The translations under genes were made by a program, and so were the position numbers. Source: Mycoplasmataceae bacterium (GTDB lineage Bacteria; Bacillota_I; Bacilli_A; Mycoplasmatales; Mycoplasmoidaceae). Taken from it: DNA of 64,000 nucleotides. Location: positions 372,001-436,000 of the forward strand of contig JAISBY010000010.1 in the NCBI GenBank assembly GCA_031265955.1, written 5' to 3'. The notes under the pieces are model-generated. The model saw nothing but the letters and a program-made list of their open reading frames with translations. It did no database searches and had not been told where the DNA came from. Shown here one piece after another: positions 7,482 through 62,938 of the stretch. Within the stretch, counting starts at the first letter, position 1. Every line of letters begins with the position of its first letter.

Positions 7482-7627
7482 TATAATCAGTTATGCAATC
7501 AAATAGGGGGGGATTAAACGATATAGTACTACAAGTACTAATTTAATAGCTTCTCTAAAAAACCAGACTTTTACATTTTTAGGAGTCTGGTTTTTGCTAT
7601 TTATCATACTTAAAAGAGGAGAAATTT
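7482..7627 (+). promoter_or_regulatory. Leader copy 1: -10 box, poly-G tract, conserved hairpin, internal terminator
   Basis: In order: TATAAT at 7482-7487; seven G at 7506-7512; a bulged hairpin at 7513-7547 (ATTAAA and TAGTACT pair with AGTACTA and TTTAAT, with an unpaired CGATA on the 5' side and a three-base loop); a terminator hairpin at 7557-7595; and a ribosome-binding site AGAGGAG before ATG 7628. A near-identical copy lies inverted at 15374-15516 before a different surface-protein gene. The hairpin stems are retained while loop bases differ. It could be an attenuator, or the source of a ~100-nt RNA ending near 7595. Confidence 0.65.
7557..7595 (+). terminator. Intrinsic terminator inside leader copy 1
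   Basis: Stem AAAAACCAGACT pairs with AGTCTGGTTTTT across a 14-nt loop and ends in a T run. It lies downstream of a promoter but upstream of the gene at 7628, so it would limit expression unless antitermination occurs. It would also terminate recO transcripts. Confidence 0.75.
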
Positions 7628-8245
7628 ATGAATAAAACAAAATTATTATTGGCAACACTAATACCAGGTGTTGCTCTAGTTTTCGCGGGAACTGGTGTTG
7701 GAATTGGTTATGCTATTTGACACAATTCCGATGATTTGTCTCGACACGCTCAAGAGTTAGTCAAAAAAATTAATGTCCCGTCTTTCTTGTCTGATGAAGT
7801 TCCTTACGTTCCAAGTTCTGCCGATATAGATATTTTTTTTACCTCGCTAAATGCCAATATTAACTACGACATACTTGAAAAACGACCAGGATTATTAGAA
7901 TCATGGAATAATGAAGAAGATTTTACAGTTAAAGCAGGAGATTGAATTATTGTAAACTCCCAATTTAAGTTTGCTAGAAATAATGACCGGTGTATTTCTG
8001 GCGGTTTTGATTTTAGTGATGTTACCAATGAAATTACAAAACTAAGATTATACAACGAGTCACCTACAGCGCTAACCCCAGACTTTGATTATTATGGCTT
8101 GAAATTGTGAGTTGAAGTGAGTATGGTTACATTTAATGATAGCGGTAGTCTTCTTCATTTGCGTGGCGAAAAGAAATTTTCAAATTTCCTAGAACGCATA
8201 CCAAAAAATGGAGATTACTCATTCCACACAAAAAGTCAAACGTAG
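7628..8245 (+). CDS. Surface-anchored protein of unknown function
   Basis: 205-residue protein with an N-terminal uncleaved signal or anchor segment (about residues 5-32) ending in GTGVGIGYAIWHN, followed by a hydrophilic extracellular domain. No lipobox cysteine is present. The same anchor motif (GVGIGYAxWHN) occurs in the leucine-rich surface protein at 61274. Start ATG 7628 has the ribosome-binding site AGAGGAG. The gene interrupts the usual recO-glyS order and is preceded by the poly-G leader element, so variable expression is suspected. No domain was recognised in the remainder. Confidence 0.78.
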
Positions 8246-14868: not shown

Positions 14869-14901
14869 AAACTTCCCTTATAGTTTATTTAGGAAAAGTT
14901 A
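14866..14901. terminator. Probable bidirectional terminator between cdd and a lipoprotein gene
   Basis: AACTTCCC pairs with GGAAAAGTT (one bulged base) around a loop of about 14 nt. The minus-strand read-out ends in T-rich sequence. It lies between two convergent genes and overlaps the 3' end of the minus-strand one. Confidence 0.45.
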
Positions 14902-15373
14902 TGGTTGCCATTCCTTTTAAAAAAGATAAGTCGGAAACGTCTTCATGATATTTGTTTAATATATCTAATAATTCTTCATTACCAATACCATAGTCTCGAT
15001 AATGCCCATCAAAAGTGTAAGAACTTAATTTTATTTGGTTATCTGAATAGTATTCTTTAAAAATGCCTGTCGTTCCATCAAAACTTATTGTTTTGTCGTT
15101 TGAATCAATACAAATTTCACCATATAAATTTGAATCACTGGAGAAAATGAGCCATCCACCAAGGTTGTTGCTGACATACAGAAACATTCTGTCATAATCA
15201 AAATTATGATTAAATTTAATAGTAGCATCTTTTAACTTATCACCTATTTTCAGTTCGCTGATATCAACAACTTTAGATTTGTTACAGCTTGTCAAACTAG
15301 TAACAAATGCAATGCTAGATATTCCTAGCACACTAATAGTACTGATCGTTTTAATTAAATTTATTCTTCTCAT
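14885..15373 (-). CDS. Lipoprotein of unknown function
   Basis: 162-residue protein with an N-terminal signal peptide and lipobox SLTSC (acylated Cys at residue 30). The mature part is small and hydrophilic with no recognised domain. Start ATG 15373 has the ribosome-binding site AAAGGGAA. The gene is preceded by leader copy 2 with nine G, an intrinsic terminator and a conserved hairpin, shared with the unrelated surface protein at 7628. Confidence 0.82.
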   Translation of the reverse strand: MRRINLIKTISTISVLGISSIAFVTSLTSCNKSKVVDISELKIGDKLKDATIKFNHNFDYDRMFLYVSNNLGGWLIFSSDSNLYGEICIDSNDKTISFDGTTGIFKEYYSDNQIKLSSYTFDGHYRDYGIGNEELLDILNKYHEDVSDLSFLKGMATITFPK

Positions 15374-15516
15374 TTTGTTTCCCTTTTGATTTAAATAGCA
15401 AAAACCAGACTTCTACAAAGGTAAAAGTCTGGTTTTTAGAGAAAGAATTAAATTAGTACTTATAGTACTGTATCGTTTAATCCCCCCCCCTATTTAATTG
15501 CATACTAGTGATTATA
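15374..15516 (-). promoter_or_regulatory. Leader copy 2: -10 box, poly-G tract, conserved hairpin, internal terminator
   Basis: Read on the minus strand: TATAAT (15516-15511), nine G (15490-15482), bulged hairpin (15481-15447) with the same CGATA bulge and the same AGTACT stem as copy 1, then a terminator (15437-15400), then the ribosome-binding site and ATG 15373. Compared with copy 1 the G tract is two longer, the hairpin loop changes from ACA to ATA, and the terminator loop is diverged while both stems are kept. Confidence 0.65.
15400..15437. terminator. Intrinsic terminator inside leader copy 2
   Basis: AAAACCAGACTT pairs with AAGTCTGGTTTTT around a loop of about 12 nt. T runs on both strands make it potentially bidirectional. 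On the minus strand it stands between promoter and gene. Confidence 0.72.
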
Positions 15517-19575: not shown

Positions 19576-20331
19576 GTGTTTTACCAACCAGGATATGTTT
19601 ATATATTTTTGCCTTTAATAGCTTTAATGGTTGTAATTGCTTTCTTGTTTTGGTTTTTCAATCGCAAATCATCTTTCCGTGTTAAAATGCGGTGGTTACT
19701 AATACTTTGGGTAATTTTAGTAGCAGGAGAGCTAACCAAACAGATTTACTATATTGCCGTAAACAATTGGATTGGTCGAATTCCTATCAATTTTTCTGCC
19801 ACTACTTTATATATTATGCCTTTTATTCTTTTTAGCAAAAAACACAGAAAAATTTATAAGGTTGCTTGACATTTGGAATATGTCGTATCTTCATGCATTG
19901 CTGTTGTTACGCTTATTTATCCTGCCTTGCTAGCTGGTGATTTGCCTACCGATGGTAATGTGTTTGTTTCGATGCAAGTAGCTTGATCGGTTATTTATCA
20001 TTTGATCGTTTTGTTAATAGGGCTTATCTTGCTTACTTTTCATCCTTTTGCTACCTTTGAATGGAAATATTTATTTTGAACAATTGTTTTTGTTGTTGCT
20101 TGATTACTACTAATGATAATACTTTCACTTCTTATGAAGAATAATCTAGGAATGATAGTAGAAGGCAGCTTTGTTAGTTCTTTGACGCTTTGGCCCCATA
20201 TTTTAGTAATGTCAACTGTTTACCTAGCGGGGGGGGTGTTATCCTTTATGATTTGAAAATTTGGTTTGATTCGTATTCGCGGATTAGATAATGTCTTGCC
20301 TAAATTTCATCAAAATTCAATTTTACTTTAG
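19576..20331 (+). CDS. Six-helix membrane protein with an in-frame poly-G tract
   Basis: 251-residue polytopic membrane protein with about six hydrophobic helices and no recognised catalytic motif. The layout with a RIPINF segment before a helix loosely recalls the YwaF/TMEM164-type family, but this is a weak guess. It carries eight consecutive G at 20229-20236 encoding AGGV (about residues 219-222). The reading frame stays open through it to TAG 20331, so the gene is intact as sequenced. Slippage by one base would replace the last ~30 residues. The start is GTG with no Shine-Dalgarno sequence. Confidence 0.72.
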
Positions 20332-21724: not shown

Positions 21725-22664
21725 ATGAAGAAATTCTTGGAAATAGTTCCTTGCGGATTAGTACTATTCACTGTTTCAACTATAACATTAACCAGCTGCG
21801 GTAATAATGGTAATGTTGATGATAATTCATTCTTCATTTCGTTAGATAAATCTCGAGTCTTTAAAAATAAAACATCAGAACGTATTGGCGAACCAAGTCT
21901 ATACCAATATATGTACGAATGATTACAAGTTAATAACAATCACAAACTACTATTTATTGGATTTGACGGATGCAGAGCTGATGCAGTTTCCTATTATGTG
22001 TTAAATAACAAGACGTCAATTTTGAGCGATTTAGCTACAAACGGCGAGTTGTTGCTTGGTTTTTGTGGTGGAATAAATCAAACACAACAAACATCCACTA
22101 GTCCAGGGTGAACGTCGTTACTAACTGGAGAATGAGGTGCAACAAATGGAGTTACAACTAATCACGCCGACACACAATTATTACCAGGTCATCATACGAT
22201 TATGTACAACTTACAACATGATTCAATTGATAGCTCGTACACTTCCAGCCAGTGGCTGTGAAACGAAACATGACACACAGACTTTGATGAGGAGGGGGGG
22301 GGGTTCACCGTATGATTTTTATCAAGATGAATCAAGCCACCCGGAATATAGCACAATAGTAAACCAACTAAAGGAATTTATACCAAATCATCGGGCTAAT
22401 TTTGGTATTTTAGATTGCTGTGATAATGCTGGCCATGAATTTGGTTTTTCTCCTTCGGTTCCAGAATATGTGGAAGCACTTCGACAAAGCGACGAATATG
22501 CACGAGAACTTATTGATGAAGCGAGAAATAGTTGTACGAATCCTGATGAAAATTTATTAGTAGTTTTAACTACCGATCATGGTGGTATTAATTATGATCA
22601 CGGCGGATTTAGCGACGAAGAAACCACTACTTGATATGCCTTGAGTCAAAGCTTATTTAATTAG
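21725..22664 (+). CDS. Phase-variable lipoprotein, type I phosphodiesterase/alkaline phosphatase superfamily (out of frame as sequenced)
   Basis: Signal peptide and lipobox TLTSC (Cys25), then an alkaline-phosphatase-superfamily domain: metal-binding LLFIGFDGCRADA, nucleophile region SPGWTSLLTGEW, and C-terminal TTDHGG with a further metal His in NYDHGG. The protein is split over two frames at a run of ten G (22294-22303). Upstream the frame is phase 2. After the run the family sequence (SPYDFYQDESSHPEYS and TTDHGG) is in the next frame and ends at TAG 22664. As sequenced, translation stops 16 codons after the tract. Nine (or twelve) G would restore a protein of about 312 residues. The enzyme is probably an exposed nucleotide pyrophosphatase/phosphodiesterase or sulfatase-like hydrolase; substrate unknown. 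Confidence 0.82.
22294..22303 (+). repeat. Poly-G tract (10 G) inside a coding region
   Basis: Homopolymer of ten G in an AT-rich genome, located exactly at the frame break between two halves of one protein. This is the classical position for slipped-strand on/off switching. Confidence 0.85.
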
Positions 22665-61074: not shown

Positions 61075-61080
61075 TATAAT
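61075..61080 (+). promoter_or_regulatory. -10 box upstream of the CA tract
   Basis: TATAAT ending 9 nt before an ATG at 61090 and 40 nt before the (CA)n repeat; it probably transcribes the repeat and the downstream surface-protein gene. Confidence 0.5.
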
Positions 61081-61089
61081 TGTGAGATA

Positions 61090-61173
<84 letters not shown>

Positions 61174-61273
61174 TTTTTTTCGTCCTAATAATTCAATACT
61201 AGTAGCAAATACTGCTGCTGGTATTTTTTTATTGTCTCATTAACAAAAGTTATTAATTATTGAAGGGAATAAT

Positions 61274-62938
61274 ATGAAAAATAAAAGGAAACAAAACAAT
61301 AATTGGAAACCGCACAAATGTTGGGCTGCTTTACTTATCACATTAGGTTGCTTGGCGACGTCTGGTATTGGTGTTGGTATAGGGTATGCGGTTTGACACA
61401 ATAAGAATTCAAACCCAGATCCCATTCCACCAACTCCTCCAGCTCCTATAGAGCATATTTATACACTTGAAAGATCTGCAACAGTATTAGATTGAAATCG
61501 TGATCCCACAAAATCACTTTATACAGAATTTACGATGAAAGTAGATGGCGTAGCAATTTATGATCCGGCTAATGTAATGCTTAGTATTGATGCTGGTAGT
61601 GATTATGTAACTATTGACACAACTGCTAATAGAATAACTTATACTGGCAAAGATGTTGGTGGCGTTAAAACACCTGTTTACAACACTCTCCCAATTGATG
61701 TAACTGCGACATATGATGGACATACTGCTGCCACCTATATTGTATTAGATGATTTTGAGCCAACAAATGTTTTGGAACCAAATGATCCGGCGTGAGAAAA
61801 TTTATTTAAGACATCATCAGGCACATTAAATTCCGACAATATTGTTAGTAAAAACAATAATAATTGGTTACAACAGCAAAACCAATACGATACGATTGAC
61901 TTATCTTGTTTTACTTCCATAAGTTCTCAGGCCTTCCAAGGTTGTCCAAGTTTGAACAGTGCTATTGGAACAAACGATATTACTATTAGTTTTGAAAATT
62001 TTAATGCAACGAGTCTCAAATCCATCGGTGACGACGCCTTCCGATCTTGCGTACGAATTACAAATCTCATCCTTCCGAATACAACCGAAACAAATGCTTT
62101 TTCCATTGGTACTCGCGCCTTCCAAGAATGTGCAAATTTAAAAAAAGTATCCCTTCCTAGCGGAATTTCGACTGCTAGTATTTCCATAGGCAACAATGCT
62201 TTCTCGTGATGTACGGAACTCAAAAATTTCGTCTTACCAAATGCTAATATTTCCATTGGTCTAAGTGCCTTCAGTTACTGCACGAATTTAGAAACATTAT
62301 CACTACCAGAAGTTTCTACGTTCACTAAAATTACCTCTATCGGTACTAAGGCATTCGGTTACTGTGCGAGTTTAACGAAAGAAGGCATTCAAAAATTAGG
62401 CGATGACGGCTCAGGAAATCCTCATATTGATACCAATGTTTTGGACTATGCCGGTAACGGAACTGGTGTTTCAATTAAAGGTGCCGCCATTTTTATGAAG
62501 GTTTGAGGCATTGCTACTATATTAGCGTCAGGTGATTTGGGTGACAAACTAAACAATTATTTTACTTCTGTCATCCGGGGTTACGCCTTCAATAGCTGTG
62601 CAAGTTTGACAGACATTGATTTAAGCAGTGCAACCGCTACGAGTTTCGACGGTGGCGCTGTCTTTTATGATTGTTGAAAACTACTAACTGTAAAATTACC
62701 AGTAGGCATTACTTCCATCACCGATGGTAATTTTCGAAACTGTGCCGCTTTAACGGATTTATATTGGTATTATGGACAGATTCCTTCCTTTGGTTCTCAA
62801 GTTTTTGAGAACTGTGCAACTAACGGTGTGCTTCATGTAACTTCAGCATACGCTACAGCTCAAGGAATATCGACAGATTCTCCTGTAACTAACTGAAGTA
62901 CACTTTCAGGATGAACCTACGACGTTATAATGTCGTAA
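61274..62938 (+). CDS. Leucine-rich repeat (BspA/LRR_5-type) surface protein
   Basis: 554-residue protein anchored by an N-terminal hydrophobic segment ending SGIGVGIGYAVWHN, followed by a Pro-rich linker (PPTPPAP), a possible Ig-like/cadherin-like region, then repeats of the form SIGxxAFxxCxxLxxLxLP from about residue 215 to the end. These are the Treponema/BspA-type LRR_5 repeats used for adhesion. Several TGA Trp codons occur. Ribosome-binding site GAAGGGA. The (CA)21 tract upstream suggests phase-variable expression. The anchor motif matches the protein at 7628. Confidence 0.88.

Follow-up and report, generated by a model that had tools for sequence, protein, structure and literature searches.

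Repeat-bearing leaders ahead of surface-protein genes of a Mycoplasmataceae bacterium as candidate phase-variable leader-peptide attenuators

Mycoplasma phase variation is commonly attributed to recombination, to repeats that alter promoter spacing or to repeats within coding frames. The locus analyzed here raises the question of what a G tract does when it is placed, together with an intrinsic terminator, between a promoter and a surface-protein gene, and when this arrangement recurs within the same 64-kb window (the whole stretch of DNA under analysis, 64,000 nucleotides). The two leaders described in the initial annotation were found as located, at 7482-7627 on the + strand and, inverted, at 15374-15516 on the − strand (Table 1). 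In leader 1 the TATAAT at 7482-7487 (+) is followed by G7 at 7506-7512, a hairpin, the terminator, a Shine-Dalgarno (SD) sequence and the gene ATG at 7628; in leader 2 the tract is G9 and the gene ATG, at 15373 (−), is again preceded by an SD sequence. The two are homologous over ~120 nt (BLAST E = 6.9e-38), and their folds score z = −4.6 (leader 1) and z = −5.8 (leader 2) against dinucleotide shuffles. The gene under leader 1 (7628..8245), for which no Pfam match was obtained, has recO on one side and a class II tRNA synthetase gene on the other, with dnaG next. A third leader of the same design lies within the window at 61075-61273 (+), with TATAAT, ATG, a (CA)21 repeat, terminator, ribosome-binding site and surface gene in that order. 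From the anatomy of these leaders and their likeness to a known system, we consider it highly probable that each acts as a leader-peptide attenuator subject to phase variation, a device used for surface proteins across the genome.

Table 1. Positions of the leader elements and of the genes downstream of them in the 64-kb window.
Feature	Positions	Strand	Remarks
Leader 1, -10 element TATAAT	7482..7487	+	predicted transcription start ~7493
Leader 1, leader ORF 1, MQSNRGGLNDIVLQVLI	7493..7546	+	ATG directly at predicted transcript start
Leader 1, P1 5' strand AAAUAG	7501..7506	+	closing helix
Leader 1, G7 tract, frame-setting repeat	7506..7512	+	7-11 G across copies
Leader 1, P2	7506..7556	+	G tract and AUUAA paired with UUUAAU..CUUCUCU, around apical hairpin
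Leader 1, P3	7558..7595	+	intrinsic terminator hairpin and U run
Leader 1, P1 3' strand CUAUUU	7597..7602	+	just 3' of terminator
Surface-protein gene under leader 1	7628..8245	+	205 aa; N-terminal membrane segment
Leader 2, -10 element TATAAT	15511..15516	−	
Leader 2, leader ORF 2, MQLNRGGD	15477..15503	−	with G9 the stop comes 3 nt past the tract
Leader 2, G9 tract	15482..15490	−	
Leader 2, terminator hairpin	about 15400..15437	−	
Leader 2, P1 3' strand CUAUUUAA	15391..15398	−	partner UUAAAUAG at 15490-15497
Lipoprotein gene under leader 2	14885..15373	−	162 aa; LTSC lipobox
Leader 3, -10 element TATAAT	61075..61080	+	
Leader 3, P1 5' strand UGAGAUAAU	61083..61091	+	extends into start codon of leader ORF
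Leader 3, leader ORF 3, MKENNSINSMS(HT)n..	61090..61173	+	
Leader 3, (CA)21 frame-setting repeat	61121..61162	+	
Leader 3, terminator hairpin AATACTAGTAGCA/TGCTGCTGGTATT and U run	61195..61231	+	
Leader 3, P1 3' strand AUUGUCUCA	61231..61239	+	
Surface-protein gene under leader 3	61274..62938	+	554 aa

A chance origin of the pair is excluded, because further copies were found in the genome both by BLAST and with a covariance model. BLAST with the leader recovered 8 more full or partial copies in this 980-kb genome (G000). The covariance-model search proposed in the initial annotation was carried out with a model of the G-type leader (R1) built from nine copies, and it matched 12 full copies here, ~20 in G006 and ~30 in G013, with smaller numbers in G007, G012, G022 and G024. 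In several congeners (AG)n takes the place of the G tract at the same position, and a model of this GA version (R2) has matches in the same seven genomes as R1, including G000. The (CA)n leaders were surveyed by pattern searches; this genome has 18 (CA)n arrays of the (CA)21 length class, 13 of them inside such leaders. The family, in which G(7-11), (GA)n and (CA)n occupy one position, thus comprises ~30 members in this genome, as counted by targeted searches, and more than 100 in congeners, figures that overstate independence because copies within one genome are related. The length of the repeat differs among near-identical paralogues, (AG)n for example ranging over 20-42 nt in G007. In agreement with the earlier view that the element belongs to no named RNA family, Rfam returned no matching family at gathering or relaxed thresholds. 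Two (CA)n arrays of this genome, L223 and L227 (G000:C3:320842 and 463176), adjoin leader arrays back to back; neither has its own terminator, and both carry TATTCACCGAGRAARTTTC ahead of the repeat.

The distribution of the leaders is narrow. Across 320 genomes of the order, the TATAAT-ATG-(CA)n pattern occurred in a handful of genomes, all of one genus out of 50, and the reversed control pattern gave no matches in this search; among 95 genomes of the family, the G form was present in only 1 of 11 genera. A contig scan for the G type returned relatives annotated as 'Mycoplasmataceae bacterium' and a few chance matches (Clostridia, Omnitrophota, others). Congeners devoid of G or GA copies also contain TATAAT-ATG-(CA)n, and in one of them, G021, it belongs to the same leader design. 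In G018 the ORF extends ~500 codons beyond (CA)n and, as read from its peptide, resembles a type I methylase subunit; this looks like ordinary coding-repeat phase variation. At L241 (G018:C47) and L243 (G023:C31), TATAAT-ATG-(CA)n directly opens long ORFs with the same start design, possibly as coding-frame phase variation of restriction-modification genes.

The genes downstream are consistent in kind. A readable downstream ORF is present in 103 of the 109 copies, and 92 of these 103 show a lipobox or an N-terminal membrane or signal segment, as called by simple rules and no trained predictor; with surface-type N-termini at this frequency, the downstream genes of the two original leaders are not a chance pair. 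Most of the downstream genes have no Pfam match, and one has Ig-like domains. A non-surface gene was also met: L164 (G000:C11, ~7684-7819, −) is a (GA)n leader with a GTG start ahead of a zinc alcohol dehydrogenase gene, possibly a phase-variable metabolic enzyme. Two other G tracts of the window lie in coding sequence. A G10 tract at 22294-22303 is within an ORF encoding a lipoprotein with a weak match to phosphodiesterase (21725-22351), coding seems to continue past it in another frame (ORF 22137-22664), and it looks like ordinary coding-frame phase variation, currently out of frame; a G8 tract at 20229-20236 is near the end of ORF 19576-20331, just ahead of a tRNA cluster.

What all versions of the leader have in common, as far as can be read from their sequences, is a start codon, a frame open through a repeat of 1-2 nt and stops so placed that the length of the repeat modulo 3 would decide whether the ribosome gets to the terminator. 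The block shared by leaders 1 and 2 starts exactly at an ATG, at 7493 (+) and 15503 (−), and the 5-7 nt that separate it from TATAAT are unconserved. With this ATG begins a short ORF that the initial annotation does not mention. An ATG is found 5-7 nt past the -10 element in 52 of 57 G-type copies, some GA copies having GTG there, and because the start codon follows TATAAT at this distance the G-type leaders would be leaderless. When TATAAT and (CA)n were searched for with no ATG required, 20 of the 21 matches nevertheless had an ATG 6-12 nt past TATAAT; the reversed control of this search gave zero matches. It is on this conserved spacing from TATAAT to ATG that the promoter claim rests, and not on the consensus scan of the region, in which promoter-like and terminator-like counts were not above those of shuffles. 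Three GA-type relatives (L188-L190) have no start codon and a G-type copy (L080) has ACG; these four look decayed. In many leaders (L065, L069, L070, L075, L078, L079, L095, L012, L015, L234) a C7-C11 run was observed from a few to ~30 nt upstream of TATAAT, possibly a second repeat acting on promoter spacing. Starts of this kind are nothing unusual in mycoplasmas: in M. pneumoniae 16% of transcripts are leaderless-like, and their translation is as good as that of leadered mRNAs (PMC10568206).

Among 112 copies with a start codon, a stop between it and the repeat is found in frame in 1 copy, in the +1 frame in 32 copies and in the +2 frame in 52, and the single in-frame case (L113) is an upstream ATG mis-picked by the script. 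A TAG spans the start of the G tract in most G-type copies and is always out of frame, despite upstream indels. The (CA)n leaders encode similar peptides from different DNA (MRDKILVVF, MRDEILVVF, MRSRIAF, MKNKILLV, in each case continued by HTHT..). The lack of in-frame stops is the signature of a translated frame.

Past the repeat, usually one or two frames close early and one enters the terminator hairpin. Of the 57 G-type copies, 52 have one and only one frame that reaches the terminator, the expectation from dinucleotide shuffles of the spacer being 24-53% in the three larger groups, a difference that is strong but not exact because the shuffles ignore the kinship of the copies and the limit of 12 nt used to call a reaching frame was our own choice. 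At least one closing frame together with at least one reaching frame is present in 103 of 109 G and GA copies, and the (CA)n leaders have the same arrangement. The closing stops are UUAA and UUUAAU in G000 and G006, at positions 2 and 31 after the repeat, and UAG and UAA in G013, at 10 and 18; in GA leaders they are at 0, 5, 8 or 11. Hence, as the stops used differ among lineages, the frame design is not one inherited sequence. The OFF state is less sharp in the GA type, since two frames often come within 12 nt of the terminator. The frames in which the copies now stand are predicted as 17 ON and 39 OFF for the G type and as 10 ON, 9 intermediate and 21 OFF for the GA type, so that ~30% of copies are presently in an open frame; such scatter, with near one-third open, is as predicted by free drift of repeat length. 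In the window, leader ORF 1 with G7 runs to the TAA at 7544-7546, 14 nt short of the terminator stem, and is predicted to be OFF or intermediate; leader 2 with G9, its stop lying ~41 nt ahead of the terminator, and leader 3 with (CA)21, which ends at the TAG at 61171, 24 nt ahead of the terminator, are both predicted to be OFF.

These features suggest the following sequence of events. Transcription would begin at or just ahead of the start codon, and a ribosome would load there and translate the short ORF through the slippery G(n), (GA)n or (CA)n, whose unit is never a multiple of 3 nt. Units gained or lost at replication would change the frame in which the ribosome reads. One or two of the three frames would bring it to a stop within ~1-35 nt, the terminator hairpin would fold and transcription would end short of the gene (OFF); in the open frame the ribosome would enter the 5' arm of the terminator, or the whole hairpin, so that no terminator could form while the polymerase passes (ON). 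Helix P2 may induce a pause by which ribosome and polymerase stay synchronized; the closing helix P1 would form only after read-through. Ribosome and polymerase are closely coupled in M. pneumoniae, as is known from expressome work. The earlier suggestion of an attenuator is supported. Nothing in the analysis shows a separate function for the small RNA that had also been proposed; a terminated RNA of ~100 nt would be a by-product.

The G tract had been taken in the initial annotation for a graded, tunable part of the RNA fold. This is probably wrong in kind, because in other leaders the position is occupied by (GA)n or (CA)n, the latter being unable to form the same pairing. An attenuator, or a small RNA of ~100 nt, based on structure only would let the length of pairing between the tract and pyrimidines tune read-through with no translation involved, and it would fit the predicted P2 pairing of the tract with CUUUCUCU, retained in the G family, as well as the position of (GA)n opposite UCUUUUCUU in the GA family. 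We regard it as improbable, given that it leaves unexplained the fixed start codon, the missing in-frame stops and the arrangement of the stops, and that the (CA)n replacement is incapable of the same pairs. Expression could also be tied to nucleotide pools if the G tract were transcribed reiteratively, in the manner of Bacillus subtilis pyrG. The G run of the leaders is near the 5' end and followed by a terminator; however, its position is 13 nt past the predicted start, all of it is templated, and neither (GA)n nor (CA)n can act in this way, which makes this explanation extremely improbable. Control of the tract in trans by an anti-repeat small RNA, like that of RepG on the tlpB leader of Helicobacter pylori, concerns an object of the same type, an mRNA leader with a G tract of variable length on which the outcome depends (PMC8295292). 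Three repeats would however require three small RNAs, a pyrimidine partner is already available in cis, and the leader ORF and the terminator would have no explanation, so that very little credence is due to it.

In P3, a hairpin with a U tail, the stem differs among copies through compensatory changes, and 8 of the 38 predicted pairs show double changes; the conservation of the terminator stem inferred earlier from the two window copies therefore does not mean invariance across the family. Similarly, the CGATA bulge said to be identical is so in the two window copies, while elsewhere those columns read GTGTTA, GTGGTA, GTGCTA or GTGACA. The many similar copies, in both orientations and nearly always ahead of surface genes, might alternatively be targets of recombination, each being a DNA-level site for recombination, or a cassette for swapping promoters, of the kind found in the vsa, vsp and vpma loci. 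Such a role is very unlikely: the copies are dispersed through the genome, every gene has a promoter of its own, identity sets in at the predicted start of the transcript rather than at the promoter, and the stems vary by compensatory change. A copy of the P3 hairpin, with part of the preceding leader sequence (L016, G000:C3:368080-368143), immediately follows the stop codon of another gene, taken for rplL from a reading of its peptide, and thus stands where a terminator would normally be; it is possibly the origin of the leader terminator, or an offshoot from it.

Frame switching alone explains neither helix P2, a possible pause hairpin, nor the closing helix P1. In P1 the 5' segment of the transcript pairs with the bases right after the terminator, enclosing P2 and P3; the helix is present in the minimum-energy fold of leader 2. 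Its strands are AAAUAG/CUAUUU in G000, AUGAUCAAC/GUUGAUCAU in G007, UGACCACACA/UGUGUGGUCA in L082 and UGACAAGC/GUUUGUCA in (CA)n leaders, so that the pairing is kept although the sequence varies, with 10 bp in L082, 11 bp in L199 and 9 bp in the L117-L120 group. Overall the P1 score is above that of shuffled sequence (mean 12.4 versus 10.3), and in (CA)n leaders, some of which are near-duplicates, the combined p is ~5e-4. P1 is not universal, because in the G-type leaders of G013 it scores 10.6, not above the 10.4 of shuffles. Because its formation requires read-through, P1 may close off the leader ORF once the mRNA is complete. We propose, tentatively, that the leader is a one-shot switch, in which P1 would bury the leader start after read-through, each transcript would take a single ON/OFF decision and the finished mRNA would be translated only from the surface gene.

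Should the attenuator operate as proposed, a repeat in a separate, apparently leaderless micro-ORF would govern transcription termination ahead of dozens of unrelated surface proteins in one genus, with three repeats that are interchangeable. The coding signature would then testify, from natural sequences, to the translation of a leaderless ORF and to its coupling with transcription in a mollicute, and in any metagenome assembly the surface genes that are on could be predicted at once from the length of the repeat modulo 3. A literature search for GA-repeat or attenuator leaders in mycoplasmas, within a scope that most subscription journals fall outside of, yielded no mollicute example, nor, within that scope, a description of a genome-wide, multi-repeat, leaderless version in Mollicutes; the drp genes of M. 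agalactiae, followed as a lead, proved unrelated.

Several known systems share parts of this design. As in the trp-type amino-acid attenuators, there are a leader peptide, a hairpin of the pause type, a terminator and coupled translation, but those attenuators sense charged tRNA, whereas here the input would be a heritable random change of repeat length. A slippage switch has likewise been proposed for the 5' poly-G of lipoprotein genes in Mycoplasma agalactiae and M. bovis (P48-like, P68); there the tract is in the protein's own frame and a shift breaks the protein, whereas here a separate leader ORF would act on transcription (PMC2824730). In the H. pylori tlpB leader, too, a variable G tract sets the expression of a surface protein, but through RepG, a small RNA acting in trans, and in a graded way with length; the part of that source at hand describes no frame-setting leader ORF or attenuator (PMC8295292).

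The closest counterpart is Streptococcus gallolyticus pil1/pil3, where GCAGA repeats are found in a leader-peptide gene ahead of a premature terminator (PMC3894217). In pil1 a change in the repeat shifts the leader frame, longer peptides extend to the terminator and transcription rises, an effect for which the leader must be translated (PMC3894217); out-of-frame variants let the ribosome reach the hairpin and thereby relieve termination (PMC3894217). Stops 4 nt before the hairpin or inside it give high expression, and those at least 28 nt before it mostly low expression (PMC3894217). The leaders described here share with pil1/pil3 a leader ORF with a repeat unit that is not a multiple of 3 nt, a premature intrinsic terminator and a surface structure encoded downstream. 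Promoter, repeat-bearing leader ORF, intrinsic terminator, ribosome-binding site and gene follow in the same order, the ORF is open through the repeat, and there are both closing and reaching frames. They depart from pil1 in occurring in Mollicutes, in numbering ~30 in one genome instead of two, in using three kinds of 1-2-nt repeat, in having the start codon at the predicted transcript start and in a conserved fold with closing helix P1; pil1, in turn, has a 5-nt repeat and a leader ATG preceded by a ribosome-binding site, and it has been proved by experiment. With the start at the predicted transcript start and G, GA or CA repeats, in place of an own ribosome-binding site and GCAGA repeats, the leaders would work like pil1 and are not members of its sequence family in the strict sense. 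The mechanism itself is already published for S. gallolyticus pil1/pil3 (PMC3894217), and what is new here is the leaderless start, the three repeat types, the closing helix and the scale. The pil1 mechanism would then be a general-purpose, portable switch rather than an isolated case.
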